In this document: in pieces, positions 3,925-59,148 of the stretch
How positions within the stretch are numbered: position 1 is the first letter of the stretch
Layout of the letters: every line of letters begins with the position of its first letter
Assembly (NCBI RefSeq): GCF_014200495.1
Contig: NZ_JACHBY010000009.1
Coordinates: 124,001-188,000 of the forward strand
Origin: Mucilaginibacter geliditolerans
GTDB lineage: Bacteria > Bacteroidota > Bacteroidia > Sphingobacteriales > Sphingobacteriaceae
Direction of reading: 5' to 3'
Length of the DNA stretch: 64,000 nt
Notes under the pieces: generated by a model
The model's input: the letters and a program-made list of their open reading frames with translations, nothing else
Databases searched by the model: none
Told to the model about the DNA's origin: nothing
Program-made: the position numbers and the translations under genes

Positions 3925-3932
3925 TTCCATTG

Positions 3933-4051
3933 AGTTTGCAGTTTTCAGTTAGCAGTTTGCATAGCTAAATTTCACACTGCAAACTGCCTGCTGAGAACTG
4001 CTAACTAAAGCAAAACTGCCCACTGAAAACTGCATACTGAAAACTGAAAAA
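3933..4051. repeat. Heptad-periodic inverted repeat (AACTG type) upstream of marR
   Basis: Four uninterrupted 7-mers at 3933-3960 follow the word AGTTTGC. From 3979 to 4006 the complementary phase gives four more 7-mers (GCAAACT type). After an 11-bp break, five further units (GAAAACT type) run from 4018 to the A just before the marR ATG at 4052. The two halves are inverted relative to each other, so an RNA copy could fold into a long hairpin. Units vary in positions 2-4 but the spacing stays at 7. Confidence 0.8.
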
Positions 4052-9040: not shown

Positions 9041-9064
9041 AGATAAATATTTTAACAAATATAT

Positions 9065-9095
9065 ACTGCAAAGTATTCACTGCCAACTGCCAACT
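9065..9095. repeat. Short heptad-periodic tract (ACTGCCA type)
   Basis: Four 7-mers in phase (ACTGCAA, AGTATTC, then ACTGCCA twice) lie 25 bp before the Dabb start. The word is the same family as the tract at 3933-4051, but only one arm is present. Confidence 0.5.
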
Positions 9096-9119
9096 ATTTT
9101 ATTAAGGGTGGTGGCAATG

Positions 9120-9237
9120 TGCGATTCCTTCCCTGGGGAAGGAGGAGGTAGGGGTTTCATGAATTTACTTGGCATTGTGCAGAGACCCCTCCCTGCCTTT
9201 GCACACATCCTGCCGCCCCCCTCCCGTGGGAGGGAAT
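9120..9237. repeat. Interspersed repeat family B, copy 1
   Basis: A ~118-bp unit starts TGCGATTCCTTCCC and ends CCCGTGGGAGGGAATT; the inner arms AGGGGTTTC and AGACCCCTCCCTGCC are also inverted. A second copy in the opposite orientation lies at 22834-22950. The gap 9041-9278 holds this and the short heptad tract but no gene. Confidence 0.75.
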
Positions 9238-9278
9238 TAAAAGACAATTCAACAAATCGTTAAATTACCACCAACTAC

Positions 9279-10604: not shown

Positions 10605-10707
10605 AGTTTTTAGTTCATGGTTCATAGTTGATGGTTCATAGTAAAGCCCGTTTGGCGCTAACTCATCATATTAATGGCCATGAACTATGAACCATCAGCT
10701 ATGAACT
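10601..10707. repeat. Heptad-periodic inverted repeat (TCATAGT / ATGAACT type)
   Basis: Six 7-mers of the TCATAGT type run from 10601 to 10642; four complementary 7-mers of the ATGAACT type run from 10680 to 10707. The first unit overlaps the ABC1 start codon and the last overlaps the HAD stop codon (10706-10708). A related element occurs at 38726-38832. Confidence 0.8.
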
Positions 10708-11365
10708 AAATAAATAATGCAGCCAGTTTTTGTACCGTAAGCTCTGTATAATCATTAATTACCAGGCCCGATGGCTGCAACTGATCTGCGGTATGGCCCG
10801 TGGTAATGCCTACCACTTTCATGCCAGCCGCGTTTGCGGCCTTAATACCTGCCAGCGAATCCTCAAAAACCACGCAATCTTCGGGCCGGGCTTTCAGTTC
10901 TTCTGCTGCCTTTAAAAATATCTGCGGGTTAGGCTTGCCTTTGCTCACCCTGCTCCCGTCAATTATCGCTTCAAAATCATCTCTGATGGGGATCTTGTTC
11001 AAGATAAAATCAATGTCCTCCACCGTTGCCGATGAGGCTATGGCCATTTTTATACCGGCATCTTTTAAGGCTGTCAAAAAGTTCTCCAGTCCGTTTATCG
11101 GTGCTAAGAAAGGTGCGTATATTTCACGGTAATAGCTTTCCTTTTCTTCCAGCAGTTGGTGCAACCCCGCTTCATCATATTTATCGCCGAATAATCTTCT
11201 CAGCGTTTCAATTATCGGTACGCCGCTAATTTCTGTTCTGTAAGTTTCCAATGTTAATGTACCCAGATCATGCTTTTTAAAAAGGGCCTGCCATGATTTA
11301 AAATGATATGGGGTATTATCAATTAAGGTACCGTCCATATCAAAAATTGCGGTAAAGTTTTTCAA
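10706..11365 (-). CDS. HAD-superfamily phosphatase, beta-phosphoglucomutase-like
   Basis: The 219-residue product has the HAD motifs in order: FDMDGTLIDNTPYH (nucleophile Asp), a cap domain, ASSATVED (motif II), GKPNPQIFLKAAEEL (motif III lysine) and VFEDSLAGIKAANAAGM (motif IV). This arrangement is typical of beta-phosphoglucomutases and small sugar-phosphate phosphatases. No ATG fits the start: the only in-frame candidate that keeps motif I is the TTG at 11365, and an in-frame stop lies a short distance upstream. The stop codon is inside a heptad repeat shared with the gap to the ABC1 gene. Confidence 0.88.
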   Translation of the reverse strand: MKNFTAIFDMDGTLIDNTPYHFKSWQALFKKHDLGTLTLETYRTEISGVPIIETLRRLFGDKYDEAGLHQLLEEKESYYREIYAPFLAPINGLENFLTALKDAGIKMAIASSATVEDIDFILNKIPIRDDFEAIIDGSRVSKGKPNPQIFLKAAEELKARPEDCVVFEDSLAGIKAANAAGMKVVGITTGHTADQLQPSGLVINDYTELTVQKLAALFI

Positions 11366-16944: not shown

Positions 16945-16950
16945 TATTTG

Positions 16951-17015
16951 TGAGTGGTGAATGGTGAGCAGTGAATTGTTAAAACAACCACTCACCATTC
17001 ACCGCTCATTACTCA
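16951..17015. repeat. Heptad-periodic inverted repeat (TGAGTGG / CCACTCA type)
   Basis: Four 7-mers (TGAGTGG, TGAATGG and two variants) at 16951-16978 are followed after 9 bp by four complementary ones (CCACTCA, CCATTCA and two variants) at 16988-17015. The element starts 6 bp after the sucA stop and ends 15 bp before the sucB start. The same word family occurs between rpoA and rplQ at 58082-58157. Confidence 0.85.
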
Positions 17016-17030
17016 CACAAACATAACAAC

Positions 17031-18690: not shown

Positions 18691-19277
18691 CCATTGCGAG
18701 GAACAGCCCGTCCCGAACTTGTTTCGGGAAGCAATTCCCGTACAGATTCCTCTGGTTACTTATCTATTGAGTCGCATGGTATCGCTCATAGCCGCTAAGG
18801 CCTATTTCTTTTGTCTTGATACAAAAGAAACAAAACATCAAGTCAGTAGATTAGGCTTCTTTGCCGCACAATGCCATCACCCTGCAAATCAGACAAAACC
18901 TGGGCTGCTATATTTTTACCCTGCTGTCGCTACGCACTTTGGCCTTTCCGCTTCTATAAAAATCTGCTATGCCCTGCCACCCACAAGCCCACCATCGTTT
19001 TGCCTGATTTCACCCGAAGCTGTTCTACTGACGGAGCTACCTAAGATGAGGAAACTTTAAATGAACCGTGATAAAAAGCGGGCAAAGGCCTGACAAAAAG
19101 CGCGGGCCTGGGTATTTTGCCTGTGGGTGGAAGGATCTTTTTGTCTTGATTTTTTGCTACCTTTTGTATCAAGACAAAAGTAGTAGCCTCCGCGGCAATG
19201 AGCGGCTTCACAAGATAAGTAAACTATAGGCAAATGATCTGCAAGGTCGGGGATTGCTTCGTTCCTCGCAATGACGC
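18691..19277. repeat. Composite nested repeat E, copy 1 (core in orientation 1)
   Basis: The gap 18609-19290 holds the sucB terminator and this element, but no gene. Outer ends are CATTGCGAG arms (18692 and 19264-19277). Inside them, the left arm contains TTTTGTCTTGATACAAAAG (18810-18828) and the right arm its inverse (19161-19180). The core 18837-19150 runs from ATCAAGTC to GTCTTGAT. Copy 2 at 25322-25969 has the same outer parts, but its core is inverted. A 113-residue frame across it is probably not a gene. Confidence 0.85.
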
Positions 19278-22799: not shown

Positions 22800-22989
22800 A
22801 CCATAGGTGTTCGGAAGATTTATTTTTCTTATAGATTCCCTCCCAACGGGACGGGTGCGGCTGATTGTGCAGCGGCAGGGAGGGGTTTATGCGCTAACTA
22901 AGCTATTTCAATAAACCCCTTCCTGCACCTTCCCAGGGGAAGGAATCGCACTATCCCTCGCTTTTTTTAATCTTTCGAACACCTATGGT
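22800..22989. repeat. Family B repeat, copy 2, nested in a second inverted repeat
   Basis: Outer arms ACCATAGGTGTTCG (22800 onward) and CGAACACCTATGGT (to 22989) match over 20 of 21 bases. Between them lies family B copy 2 (22834-22950), an inverted version of 9120-9237. The gap 22695-23343 also contains a terminator, a heptad tract, an FNR-like palindrome and a sigma-54-like promoter for dnaK, but no convincing gene. Confidence 0.78.
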
Positions 22990-23177: not shown

Positions 23178-23227
23178 ATTCTGCCAACCTGTCACCGTCA
23201 AATTATTACAATCTGACTATTTATTAC

Positions 23228-23255
23228 CTTTCAGCTTTCTCCTTTCAGCCTTTTA
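23228..23255. repeat. Short heptad-periodic tract (CTTTCAG type)
   Basis: The word CTTTCAG occurs at 23228 and 23242 with CTTTCTC between and CCTTTTA after, keeping a 7-bp step. Only one arm is present. Confidence 0.5.
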
Positions 23256-23281
23256 GCTAAATATTAACTGCCAAACCAACA

Positions 23282-25321: not shown

Positions 25322-25969
25322 GCGTCATTGCGAGGAGGAACGACGAAGCAATCCCCGACTGTACAAATCACGATTTTGTCTATTGAGTCGCATGGTATCG
25401 CTCATAGCCGCTAAGGCCTATTTCTTTTGTCTTGATACAAAAGAAACAAAAACCGACCGTAGGGAGCTCATGAATACCAATGAAGAACAAATAATAGATG
25501 AATAAATCAAGACAAAAAGATCCTTCCCCCCACAGGCAAAACACCCAGGCCAGCGCTTTTTGTCGGGCCTTTCCCCGCTTTTGATTACGGTTCATTTAAA
25601 GTCCTCTTCTTTGAAGAGAGTTGGATGAGGTAAAGTTCTTTTTCCCCGTCAGTAGAACAGCTTCGGATGAAATCAGGCAAAACAATGGTGGCCTCGAGCG
25701 TGGCAGGGCATAGCAGATTTTTACAGAAGCGTAAAGGCCAGGTGCGTAGCGACAGCAGGGTAAAAATATAGCAGCCCCGGTTTTGCGTGGTTTGCAGGGC
25801 AAAGGCCTTGTGCGGTAAAGAAGCATTTCTACCGACTTGATTTTTTGCTACCTTTTGTATCAAGACAAAAGTAGTAGCCTCCGTGGCAATGAACGGCTTC
25901 ACGCGATAAGTAAACGATAGGCGAATTGATCTGCACAGTCGGGGATTGCTTCGTACCTCGCAATGACGC
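25322..25969. repeat. Composite nested repeat E, copy 2 (core in opposite orientation)
   Basis: The gap 25249-25989 is filled by the dnaK terminator and this element. Outer CATTGCGAG arms and the TTTTGTCTTGATACAAAAG arms match copy 1 in the same orientation. The core 25506-25841 is the reverse complement of the copy 1 core with substitutions and small indels. Copy 2 carries an extra ~55-bp segment (about 25450-25505) between left arm and core. Frames of 67-105 residues across it look spurious. Confidence 0.85.
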
Positions 25970-38725: not shown

Positions 38726-38832
38726 TAATAGTTGATGGTTCATAGTAAACTATGCCCACCTTGTGTATTCTCTTTTTATTATGATGATCTGTTGTTCAAA
38801 AACTATGAACTATGAACCATCAGCCATGAACT
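38726..38832. repeat. Heptad-periodic inverted repeat (TCATAGT / ATGAACT type), second copy
   Basis: Left units TAATAGT, TGATGGT, then TCATAGT occupy 38726-38746. Right units AAAAACT, ATGAACT and three more occupy 38798-38832 and end 4 bp before the prs stop. Same word family as 10601-10707, but with a different 51-bp centre. Confidence 0.85.
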
Positions 38833-38835
38833 TTC

Positions 38836-39780
38836 TCAATCCACCTTAAACAACTGGCTTATTGAGCCATGTTCGTTTACATTTTCAATAGCACTTGCAA
38901 ACAGTTTAGCGGTTGTTAATACTCTTATCTTCTCGCTTTGATATTTCAGTGGTATAGTATCCGTAACTATCAGCTCAGTTAATACCGAATTCTCGATAGT
39001 TTCATATGCTTTTCCTGATAATACCGGGTGCGTACAAACCGCTCTTACGGTACGTGCGCCACGCTCCATAATTAATGCTGCTGCTTTAGCCAGCGTACCT
39101 GCGGTATCGCAAATATCATCTATCAGTACAATGTCCTGATCGGTTACATCACCTATCAGTGTCATTGATTCAATTTCATTTGCACGTTTGCGGCGTTTAT
39201 CGCAAATAACAACCTCGGCATTAAAAAACTTGGCGAAGCTGCGTGCCCTGTATGAACCGCCCATATCCGGCGAGGCAATCGTTAAATTACCTAAGCCCAG
39301 GCTTTTTATATAAGGTACAAAAATGATCGAAGCATCCAGGTGATCAACCGGGATGTCAAAAAATCCTTGTATCTGAGCCGCGTGCAGATCCATGGTCATA
39401 ATACGGTTAATACCCGCTGCAACCAATAAATTAGCTACCAGCTTTGAGCCGATTGCCACACGTGGTTTGTCTTTTCTATCCTGGCGTGCCAGCCCAAAGT
39501 AAGGGATAACTGCCGTTACATAATGTGCTGATGCCCTGCGTGCAGCGTCAATCAGCATTAGTAATTCAATTAAGTTATCAGTTGGCGGGTTGGTTGATTG
39601 TATTAAAAACACATCGCAACCACGTACTGATTCATTAAAATGCGGCTGAAATTCGCCATCACTAAATACTGAAAGGGTCACCTCACCTAATTCGCGCCCG
39701 TAAGCATCAGCAATATTTTGTGCCAATACTTGAGTACCTGAACCTGCAAATAACTTAATGGGGTTAAACTGTAAAGGCAT
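38836..39780 (-). CDS. prs: Ribose-phosphate pyrophosphokinase
   Basis: The 314-residue product matches PRPP synthase: ADAYGRELGEVTLSVFSDGE, the metal site DLHAAQIQGFFDIPVDHL, and the PRPP-binding loop DIVLIDDICDTAGTLAKAA. It supplies PRPP for nucleotide, His and Trp synthesis. It is first in the prs-rplY-pth string; a heptad repeat separates it from rplY and another lies upstream. Confidence 0.97.
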   Translation of the reverse strand: MPLQFNPIKLFAGSGTQVLAQNIADAYGRELGEVTLSVFSDGEFQPHFNESVRGCDVFLIQSTNPPTDNLIELLMLIDAARRASAHYVTAVIPYFGLARQDRKDKPRVAIGSKLVANLLVAAGINRIMTMDLHAAQIQGFFDIPVDHLDASIIFVPYIKSLGLGNLTIASPDMGGSYRARSFAKFFNAEVVICDKRRKRANEIESMTLIGDVTDQDIVLIDDICDTAGTLAKAAALIMERGARTVRAVCTHPVLSGKAYETIENSVLTELIVTDTIPLKYQSEKIRVLTTAKLFASAIENVNEHGSISQLFKVD

Positions 39781-39790
39781 CTTCTATATT

Positions 39791-39956
39791 ATTTCGAATA
39801 TCGAATTTTCGATTTCGGATTTGATTTATAATGATTTAGAATATTTAATCAGCTTGAATATCCTGTTGCCAAAGCTACTATAAAACAATTCGGATTTCGA
39901 TTTTTTAAACCGGAAAAAATCCGAAATCAAAAACCCGAAATCCGAAATCAAATTTT
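39791..39956. repeat. Longest heptad-periodic inverted repeat (ATTTCGA / CGAAATC type)
   Basis: Five 7-mers (ATTTCGA, ATATCGA and variants) run from 39791 to 39825. On the right, ten contiguous 7-mer steps run from 39887 to 39956, ending CGAAATC, CGAAATC, AAATTTT directly beside the tRNA 3' end. The gap up to 40245 holds only this, the tRNA and AT-rich sequence. Confidence 0.8.
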
Positions 39957-39957
39957 G

Positions 39958-40028
39958 TTGCCCGACCAGGATTCGAACCTAGACAAACGGTACCAAAAAC
40001 CGTCGTACTACCATTATACTATCAGGCA
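39958..40028 (-). tRNA. tRNA-Gln (anticodon TTG)
   Basis: On the minus strand the 71-nt molecule has a 7-bp acceptor stem (TGCCTGA with TCGGGCA, one G-T pair), a D-arm with TGGTAGTAC, an anticodon stem ACGGT/ACCGT around loop TTTTGGT (anticodon TTG), and T-arm GGTTCGAATCC. The 3' CCA is not encoded. Confidence 0.95.
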
Positions 40029-57423: not shown

Positions 57424-58002
57424 TTATTCTCCTTTTTCAGCGTTTTCTTCGTTATCAGCAGCTGGTGCTTCTTCGGCAGCAGGAGCTTCTGCTACTGGAG
57501 CCTCGTCAACAACCGGTGCTTCAACAACCTCTGCAGCTGGAGCAGTAGCAGCATCCTGTGCAACAGGAGCCTTAGCTTTAGCTGAACCACCGCGACGACG
57601 GGTTGTCTTTTTAGCTGTTTGTGCGTTATCGCCACCGTAAACAGTGTTATAATCTACTAATTCAATCAGTGCCATTTCAGCGTTGTCACCTAAACGGTTT
57701 TCCATTTTGATGATACGAGTGTAACCACCCGGACGGTTAGCAATTTTCTCAGCTATGTCACGGAACAGGATGCTAACTGCATCTTTATCCTGTAAGTAGC
57801 TAAATGCTGTACGACGTGAGTGAGTAGTGTCGCTTTTTGATTTAGTTAAGATTGGCTCAACATAAACGCGTAAAGCTTTTGCTTTAGCTAATGTTGTAGT
57901 GATACGCTTGTGTAAAATAAGCGAAGTTGCCATGTTACTCAGCATCGCTTTGCGGTGGCTGGTAGTACGGCCTAAGTGATTGTGTTTTTTTCCGTGTCTC
58001 AT
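57424..58002 (-). CDS. rplQ: Ribosomal protein bL17 with acidic tail
   Basis: The 192-residue product starts [20 protein letters not shown], the normal L17 opening. The conserved domain ends near residue 120; the remaining ~70 residues are an Ala/Pro/Glu/Val-rich tail ([17 protein letters not shown]) that most L17 proteins lack. It is the last gene of the operon. Confidence 0.97.
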
Positions 58003-58081
58003 TGTTTTTTAATTTTAGCACGTGCATACCGTTGGGCGATTACCTCAAGCCCTCGGAATTATGCCTTCGCTGTTTTTATTG

Positions 58082-58157
58082 TTAGTAGTGAATTGTGAGT
58101 GGTGAGTATGAAGCAGTAAAAACTACTCACTATTCACCAATCACTGCTCACCAAATT
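58082..58157. repeat. Heptad-periodic inverted repeat (TGAGTGG / CTACTCA type)
   Basis: Five 7-mers (TTAGTAG, TGAATTG and variants) at 58082-58116 face five complementary ones (CTACTCA, CTATTCA and variants) at 58123-58157. The last unit overlaps the rpoA stop at 58156-58158. It lies inside a ribosomal-protein operon. Confidence 0.85.
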
Positions 58158-59148
58158 ATTCTTCGTCTAACTTAAATTTAGACAGGTTCATACCGAAAGA
58201 TAATCCTTTTGATTTAACCAGGTCCTGAATTTCAGTTAATGATTTTTTTCCGAAGTTTCTGAATTTTAACATGTCAGCAACATCATATGATACTAAATCA
58301 GCCAGGCTGCGGATGTCAGCAGCTTTAAGGCAATTTAATGCACGTACTGAAAGATCAAGGTCAACCAATTCAGTTTTCAGGATCTTGCGCATGTGCAGGA
58401 TCTCTTCATCAACTTCTTTAGTTTCTTCCTTAGCCTGTGCTTCAAGCATCATGTTTTCATCGCTGAACAGCATAAAGTGCTGGATCAGGATCTTTGCTGC
58501 TTCTTTAAGCGCATCTTCAGGGTGTATTGAACCATCAGTTGTAATATCCAGCACTAATTTTTCGTAGTCTGTTTTTTGTTCAACACGATAGTTTTCAATA
58601 GTGAACTTTACATTTTTGATCGGGGTGAAAATAGAATCGATAGCTATTACACCTACATTAGCATCCGGGTTTTTATTTTCGTCGCTTGGGATGTAACCGC
58701 GACCCTTGTTGATAGTAAGCTCGATTTCAAGCGTTACTGAAGAGTCCATGTTACAGATAACAAGGTCAGGATTTAAAACTGTAAAGTTGTTAGAGAATTT
58801 GCTGATATCGCCAGCTTTAAAAGCATCCTGACCATTAATGATCACGAATATTTTTTCGCTGTCGCCAGATTCGCCTGTCTTTTTGAAACGTACCTGTTTA
58901 AGGTTCAGTATGATCTCGGTAACATCTTCAACAACACCTTTGATTGTAGAAAACTCATGCATCACTCCTGAGAAACGTACAGAAGTAATCGCATAACCTT
59001 CTAATGATGAAAGTAAGATACGACGCAGAGCATTACCAATGGTTATACCGAAACCTGGTTCTAACGGACGAAACTCAAACGTGCCATCAAAATCAGTTGA
59101 TTTCTGCATGATAACCTTGTCTGGTTTTTGAAATGCTAAAATTGCCAT
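58156..59148 (-). CDS. rpoA: RNA polymerase alpha subunit
   Basis: The 330-residue product has the N-terminal dimerisation and assembly domain ([20 protein letters not shown]) and the C-terminal helix-hairpin domain ([33 protein letters not shown]). Position between rpsD and rplQ is standard. Confidence 0.98.

Follow-up and report, generated by a model that had tools for sequence, protein, structure and literature searches.

The STRR sequences of cyanobacteria are head-to-tail tandem heptamers without inverted arms, and REP/BIME elements, which go with RAYT transposases, are dispersed intergenic palindromes. Heterogeneous heptads of the type GGGAATC have been described from Xanthomonas and of the type GGGGA(C/T)T from Nostoc (Rehm et al. 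2015, PMC4692102). In Xanthomonas they form convergent inverted pairs (70 in Xcc and 75 in Xac), are nearer to the upstream gene (on average 28 nt, versus 160 nt to the downstream gene) and lie mostly between codirectional genes (PMC4692102). TAACTGA direct repeats are known from Beggiatoaceae, cyanobacteria and five Bacteroidetes (MacGregor 2015, PMC4679880); in Flexibacter litoralis, 12 of 14 sets run forward before a start codon and one runs in reverse behind a stop codon. Mrazek et al. (2007), as cited in these two papers (PMC4692102, PMC4679880), found heptamers to be the most abundant of the long simple repeats of prokaryotes and proposed polymerase slippage over 7 nt. Bacterial heptamer repeats have been counted before, and no cause has become accepted.

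The window, i.e., the whole 64,000-nucleotide stretch of Mucilaginibacter geliditolerans DNA analysed here, contains intergenic arrays that are a multi-word version of the heptamer repeats known from Xanthomonas and cyanobacteria. The STRR definition does not fit them, as their arms are often inverted and their units heterogeneous. Their anatomy is that given for Xanthomonas heptads in the relevant passages of Rehm et al. (2015): units of 7 nt, two or more in tandem, that may be perfect or heterogeneous and have both fixed and variable positions; an intergenic location closer to the upstream gene, mostly between codirectional neighbours; inverted convergent pairs with the same arm order (48 AG-then-CT versus 0); and lengths that vary between relatives. 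The word differs, since GGGAATC with its quadruplex-capable G tracts is not what we find. Whereas those passages describe a single G-tract word per genome, there are about a dozen words here without G tracts. New compared with the earlier descriptions are the coexistence of several families in one genome, the related octads, a register of purine-G steps and the switching of families at an orthologous site. The TAACTGA repeats are likewise intergenic heptamers, and their orientation in F. litoralis fits the arm order seen here, but they are direct repeats of one exact word, with one inverted pair in the main genome of that report (PMC4679880). The survey of Mrazek et al. shares the heptamer excess with our data; it dealt with simple repeats, and the passages citing it do not mention an inverted layout or family turnover. 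Given the heptamer arrays of five Bacteroidetes (PMC4679880) and the inverted, heterogeneous heptads of Xanthomonas (PMC4692102), the statement in an earlier note on this DNA that no description was known for Bacteroidota was too strong. Inverted multi-word heptads are not mentioned in any title or abstract opening among the open-licence papers listed on such repeats, Bacteroidetes and the genera Mucilaginibacter and Pedobacter included. About a dozen words in one layout and one arm order, together with the 15 family changes that a single gap needs on a tree of 30 genomes, separate what is kept (step, mirror, order and place) from what is not (the word), and this makes mutational origin versus function testable in culturable bacteria. 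A further caution is that arrays of this kind can pass for RNA structures or motifs of gene regulation.

The earlier note had listed eight gaps of the window with 7-mers in exact phase. All eight hold period-7 or period-14 arrays (Table 1), but the phase is not strict: 9 of the 10 period-7 rows that Tandem Repeats Finder gives in these gaps have only 69-81% matches. Six of the gaps do have two inverted arms, as had been claimed, and the remaining two are single-armed. Several arrays sit in housekeeping gene pairs, namely rpoA-rplQ, 2-oxoglutarate dehydrogenase E1-E2 and PRPP synthase-L25. In a comparison of the window with Rfam, tRNA alone reaches the gathering score.

Table 1. Heptad arrays of the window and adjoining genes (positions are those of the window).
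Feature	Position	Strand	Remarks
AGTTTGC-family element, inverted arms	3927..4046	.	Fills gamma-glutamyltransferase / MarR-like gene gap; one AG arm, two CT arms; version in sister genome G026 diverged, same family
Single AGTTGGC/AGTTTGC-family arm	9064..9098	.	
AGTTCAT-family element, two arms	10611..10708	.	
AGTGAGT-family element, two arms	16948..17016	.	Between 2-oxoglutarate dehydrogenase E1 and E2 genes
Single AGCTGAA-family arm (CTTTCAG)	23224..23258	.	
Two-armed element, PRPP-L25 gap	38726..38835		
AGTTCAT-family arm, first (+ strand) of PRPP-L25 gap	38726..38748	.	Sister G026 has an extra unit (7-bp indel)
AGTTCAT-family arm, second (CT-type) of PRPP-L25 gap	38801..38835	.	
Ribose-phosphate diphosphokinase (PRPP synthase)	38836..39780	-	NCBIfam NF002320, TIGR01251
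Two-armed element behind tRNA-Gln	39789..39949		
Distal heptad arm, CT type on - strand	39789..39823	-	Adjoins PRPP synthase start
Short partner arm and T tract	39880..39903 (limits approximate)	-	Pairs with heptad arm: terminator-like hairpin
Heptad arm, AG type, GGATTTC on - strand	39915..39949	-	First arm behind tRNA-Gln in transcription direction
tRNA-Gln(TTG)	39957..40028	-	Upstream of the highlighted tract (39791-39956)
rplQ (ribosomal protein L17)	57424..58002	-	NCBIfam TIGR00059
AGTGAGT-family element, two arms, rpoA-rplQ gap	58079..58151	.	
rpoA (RNA polymerase alpha)	58156..59148	-	NCBIfam TIGR02027

For the period statistics, the window (on contig C9) was combined with 40 other stretches of the 6.5 Mb genome (G000), which at the PRPP synthase locus has Mucilaginibacter as its nearest named relatives, to a total of 858 kb; of the sampled stretches, L058 and L059 were chosen as holding word matches, and some grid stretches held matches too. 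Gene calls with a home-made simple hexamer model, which leave out RNA genes, gave 716 genes and 539 intergenic gaps. The match rate at lag 7 in these gaps is 0.2918, compared to 0.2775 in dinucleotide shuffles (z 12.5), with further peaks at lags 14 and 21. Plain autocorrelation is not specific, since lags 3 and 4 outscore lag 7 (z 15.1 and 13.9; lags 6 and 8 give 4.7 and 8.3). A clearer picture comes from local segments that no shorter lag explains: 32 are observed at lag 7 versus 2.5 expected from shuffles, in 27 of the 539 gaps, while the counts are 2 versus 3.4 at lag 6, 18 versus 2.45 at lag 8 and 31 versus 1.75 at lag 14. The genome-wide excess at lag 7 over lags 6 and 8 that had been anticipated from the window is therefore present. 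Contrary to what had been supposed, the 7-bp step is not unique, because octad families with an 8-bp step occur and account in part for the excess at lag 8. Octad arrays, some with inverted arms, are found at L049 1917-2018, L051 3379-3575, L055 16614-17089 and L189 7314-7433, and examples in our genome and its sister G026 are of the GATGTGCA and TTCATTAG types. The lag-8 excess is seen in these two genomes and hardly in other Mucilaginibacter loci (5 versus 2.7).

Across all sampled groups (1594 gaps), a column-information scan puts 172 gaps above the 99% shuffle threshold at period 7, where 16 are expected; for the other periods from 5 to 12, the numbers range between 37 and 85. In 33 Mucilaginibacter loci, we observed 58 lag-7 segments versus 3.7 expected, many of them copies of the same few sites. 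Twenty stretches from other families of the class (158 gaps) have 7 versus 1.4 expected, with 4 versus 1.8 at lag 6 and 6 versus 2.0 at lag 8, and one of the 20 contains inverted CGGGTTT heptads. The intergenic heptad pattern is real, and it is broader than could be seen from the window.

The scan yielded 220 arrays, which greedy grouping sorts by word into 39 groups; 13 of these contain at least four arrays. The arrays belong to about a dozen word families, including AGTTCAT, AGTCCAT, AGTATCA, AGAGTCA, AGTGAGT, AGAGATT, AGTTTGC, AGCTGAA and GGATTTC, and clustering thus bears out that the words differ between loci while the step and inverted layout are kept. From the different words, the earlier note had concluded that ordinary copying of one sequence does not explain the arrays. 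This is half right: there are several families, but the four we probed are dispersed through the genome, so that sequence copying does take part. For instance, CGAAATCCGAAATC is present at 44 places with at most one mismatch, 11 of them exact, and an AGTTCAT pattern has 37 exact matches. The latter pattern is matched at all in 17 of 296 sampled genomes of the phylum; besides the 37 of our genome there are 124, 7 and 1 in three other members of the genus, and one distant genome has 22, largely in perfect tandem. The words AGTATCA, AGTAGCT and AGTATTT are a vocabulary common to our genome and Pedobacter. None of the main word groups of our genome has a GGG run, and G runs occur in a few other genomes (L111, L132 and L228). 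A role as stop-codon traps in all frames was rejected, as repeats of AGTATCA, AGAGTCA, AGTTTGC and GGATTTC are by eye free of stops in every frame.

On the G-richer strand, units tend to begin with AG or GG. The best-phase fraction of purine-G averages 0.762 per group, compared to 0.614 (sd 0.027) in column-permuted controls, and none of 500 permutations reaches it. The excess is moderate, with AG being the best conserved column pair in 4 of 13 well-filled groups; octads have, by eye, a similar register. The order of the arms is fixed as well. Among unlike neighbours within 250 bp, 48 pairs run from the G-rich (AG) to the C-rich (CT) arm, none runs in the reverse order and 4 have one undecided arm; our genome alone gives 17 to 0. 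Since an inverted repeat reads the same after reverse complementation, the order belongs to the element and not to the strand. Of the 48 pairs, 34 lie in codirectional, 11 in divergent and 2 in convergent gaps, and 1 is at a stretch end. As RNA genes are absent from the gene calls, orthologues of the tRNA-Gln gap are counted among the divergent ones. Like neighbours comprise 16 C-rich and 7 G-rich pairs, and single arms and arms of mixed families also occur.

Arrays are present in 34 of the 432 gaps of at least 60 nt in our genome. By gap type, the numbers are 25 of 269 for codirectional, 4 of 61 for convergent and 4 of 88 for divergent gaps and 1 of 14 for those at stretch ends. Our genome and the sister together have 45 array gaps between codirectional genes, orthologous pairs included, and in 27 of these the first array begins no more than 13 nt behind the stop codon of the upstream gene.

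The tract at 39791-39956, behind tRNA-Gln, had been singled out as the longest, with ten contiguous steps in its right arm. We could not confirm the ten steps, as the longest array of the tract, in its right arm, is 33 bp, or 4.7 units. The first arm forms, together with a short partner, a terminator-like hairpin with the stem TTCGGATTTC / GAAATCCGAA. An alignment of 21 loci gives a 12-pair consensus for this stem, in which 6 pairs change in no more than one of the 21 rows and there is almost no covariation (1 pair changed on both sides, in one row). Pairing of the distal with the first arm is found in 86.1% of cells versus 85.7% in shuffles, with a covariation score of 0.112 versus 0.103 (reached in 48 of 500 shuffles), which is not clearly above shuffles; it exceeds versions shifted by 1 to 3 columns, as expected of a structure drawn from one row. 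The tract thus combines a conserved hairpin behind tRNA-Gln, its stem word multiplied, with a distal mirrored arm whose pairing is not clearly above shuffles. By eye, the GGATTTC word is present at this site in 28 of 31 Mucilaginibacter loci. Three Pedobacter loci have nothing but a short terminator there, and its stem TTCGGATT is the same stem word, so that a terminator stem may have been the origin of the tRNA-Gln array. Judged by eye, the element has an identical multi-base departure in its two arms in L061 and L062, as template switching would give.

To follow the arrays between relatives, we compared 215 kb of contig C9 with the sister genome G026. Arrays are present in either genome in 22 of 144 gaps. 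In our reading, the family is kept in 13 of the 22 and replaced or gone in 5, and the other 4 are unmapped, doubtful or present in G026 only. The five replacements are a swap of heptad families at rpoA-rplQ, heptads versus octad-like sequence at two sites, another palindrome at one and nothing at one. At rpoA-rplQ, G026 has an AGAGTCA-family element instead of AGTGAGT; the flanks shown are identical and the element is wholly different. We found no near-identical recent donor copy of the switched elements in our genome or the sister: the best other places of one element have 79% identity over 70 nt or 91% over 32 nt, and those of the second, among the matches listed, 80-84% over 55-75 nt or 94% over 34 nt. 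Identity falls below 70% in 5 of 19 array gaps and in 23 of 103 other gaps, i.e., array gaps are not replaced faster, which indicates that turnover is not special to arrays.

The same site was followed through the genus. Of 30 rpoA-rplQ loci, 25 have arrays according to a four-unit detector and 27 by eye, the other three having plain terminators. In the best tree of rpoA and part of rplQ from the 30 genomes, 10 of 27 inner branches are weak, and the six states (five families, labelled by eye, and plain) require 15 changes; the minimum possible is 5, and shuffled labels need 16.9 on average and as few as 15 in 20 of 200 cases. The changing words and kept layout postulated by the earlier note are hence seen at orthologous gaps, both against G026 and over 30 genomes. 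At PRPP-L25, labels assigned by eye for 35 loci are AGTCCAT type in 13, AGTTCAT type in 8 (two of them remnants), AGTCTGC in 1, other palindromes of CCTCTCC type in 9 and no element in 4. Since the word at tRNA-Gln is kept while other sites switch, the age of a word can differ from site to site.

What generates and keeps the arrays? The explanation that we consider likeliest, with roughly an even chance of being right, is that arrays gain or lose units of 7 bp, acquire a mirror image through template switching during replication and persist passively behind genes. In gaps with at least 70% identity between our genome and the sister, 10 of the 89 indels in array gaps are multiples of 7, compared to 2 of the 109 in gaps lacking arrays (p = 0.007); for indels of at least 5 nt, the numbers are 10 of 30 versus 2 of 24 (p = 0.046). 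Arms within one gap share their word (consensus distance at most 1 in 65 of 84 pairs, versus 9% between gaps). In our genome, the longest exact string shared by arms of one element averages 14.0 nt, compared to 11.1 nt with same-family arms elsewhere (n = 17, p = 0.016). With the sister added, the values are 14.1 versus 9.7 (n = 27, own/G026 orthologues included, p = 9e-5), and for all groups 13.7 versus 10.6 (n = 40); one private arm-to-arm string, at L046 18757-19002, is 29 nt long. Private sharing is not significant for the Mucilaginibacter loci alone (12.9 versus 10.8, p = 0.11) and is on average absent at 27 rpoA-rplQ loci (9.7 versus 9.0), and by the looser measure of mean arm identity, arms are no more alike within a gap (0.793) than between gaps of the same family (0.786). 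We read the longer shared strings as arms that may have been mirrored copies at birth and drifted later. Simple slippage as the sole cause was rejected: the match between units is 0.660 at a distance of 7 bp, 0.677 at 14 bp and 0.710 at 21 bp, so neighbouring units are no more alike than distant ones, unlike what fresh slippage would leave. The proposal of slippage combined with a template switch therefore has modest support, the unit-sized indels and arm-private strings speaking for it and the likeness of units against simple slippage. The creation or repair of inverted repeats through template switching is reported as established in bacteria and has been inferred in the histories of RNA genes (PMC7202029, PMC8794818).

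From these data we infer a course of events in which heterogeneous heptad arrays would arise and be renewed mainly via errors of DNA replication. Just after a stop codon, a short seed with G in it would expand and contract in 7-bp, sometimes 8-bp, units, and a polymerase switching template would copy the array into its reverse complement, giving the second arm. Exchange between same-family copies elsewhere would maintain the family vocabulary. The position directly behind stop codons presumably tolerates arrays, and a few, such as the one behind tRNA-Gln, would double as stems of existing terminators. With little constraint on sequence, words would turn over while the layout stays. The arm order may reflect the slightly better back-folding of the G-rich strand, for which family means are -1.57 versus -1.17 kcal/mol with DNA parameters (p = 0.019). 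Further points count against this mutational origin: slippage alone leaves the fixed arm order and the purine-G register without explanation, vocabularies shared across genera (AGTATCA, AGTAGCT and AGTATTT) need copying or selection, and array gaps turn over no faster than other gaps.

Selection for an RNA hairpin, put forward in the earlier note, would make the arrays transcription terminators or protectors of mRNA 3' ends. Their position directly behind stop codons and the conserved terminator-like stem at tRNA-Gln fit such a role, as do the terminator-like structures of rpoA-rplQ gaps (13 of 30 in sense, 6 in antisense). Pooled over four groups, sense-strand folding of 77 array gaps is more stable in 46 and less stable in 30 (p = 0.004; 316 versus 318 of 635 in controls), but this set contains many orthologues of two gaps, and the gaps of our genome and the sister give 12 more stable versus 21 less stable. 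Terminators (-10 kcal/mol) are not enriched (8 of 35 array gaps versus 72 of 313 controls), and long-arm covariation at the highlighted site stays close to shuffles, so that we reject RNA hairpins as the general function and regard them as a quite improbable explanation. An equally doubtful candidate is a putative protein or RNA factor that would read the purine-G register with a 7-nt pitch, as RNA or DNA, selection keeping the step while words drift. The register above permuted controls, its octad counterpart and the fixed arm order would suit such a factor, and for the TAACTGA arrays of Beggiatoaceae, binding by S1, Csp or Csr proteins has been proposed (PMC4679880); against it stand the moderate size of the register excess and the lack of sense-strand bias in the gaps of our genome and the sister. 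A more general grammar, in which many words serve provided that the first arm repeats purine-G at intervals of 7 (or 8) nt and a mirror follows, could come from a pitch-reading factor or from word-generating replication of the G-rich strand, in unrelated phyla alike, and we give it similarly little credence.

Non-autonomous MITE- or REP-like elements, for which a transposase with a preference for gene ends would move palindromes bearing heptad arms, are unlikely too. The match numbers of the AGTTCAT pattern in the four sampled genomes of the genus look as they would after bursts, PRPP-L25 exists in filled and empty versions, and the arm order is fixed (48 to 0). Like REP/BIME elements, the arrays form dispersed intergenic palindromes, and L225, one of seven PF01797 genes sampled, has heptad arrays on both sides, 68 and about 280 bp away. 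However, none of the other six genes adjoins a heptad array (L224 has two about 1 kb off), and by eye six of the seven are flanked by other short palindromes. The rpoA-rplQ elements have no near-identical donor in our genome or the sister (for one element, among the matches listed), replaced sites show no obvious target duplication by eye, and single and mixed-family arms exist. An origin from REP/RAYT systems is thus not supported by the flanks of the seven RAYT-type genes, with L225 as the one exception, and the mixed folding results, covariation, terminator and RAYT tests together lend no general support to a function or a transposase. As a separate observation on these genes (L221-L227), the palindromes in the flanks of six mostly differ, by eye, from gene to gene, and at L225 1100-2120 the RAYT-type gene lies between two terminator-like copies (GGGCACAGTCCTAAAACCATGCCCT), each followed by a heptad array.

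The gaps contain further features besides heptads. The rplQ leader (GCATAATTCCGAGG ... GACGGTATGCACGTG), at 58003-58075 of the window and in L191-L220, looks strongly conserved across the rpoA-rplQ gaps of the genus and is possibly a ribosomal protein leader, though it stays below every Rfam family threshold. Two parts of the window, 18811-19224 and 25504-25895, align to additional places in the joined G026 stretch with 78-84% identity and are perhaps a repeated gene or element. A further type of palindrome (CCCCTCTCC ... GGAGAGGGG and similar) is found at 9120-9240 and 22827-22960 of the window and in L061-L063 and L065, and it occupies the PRPP-L25 gap in other species.
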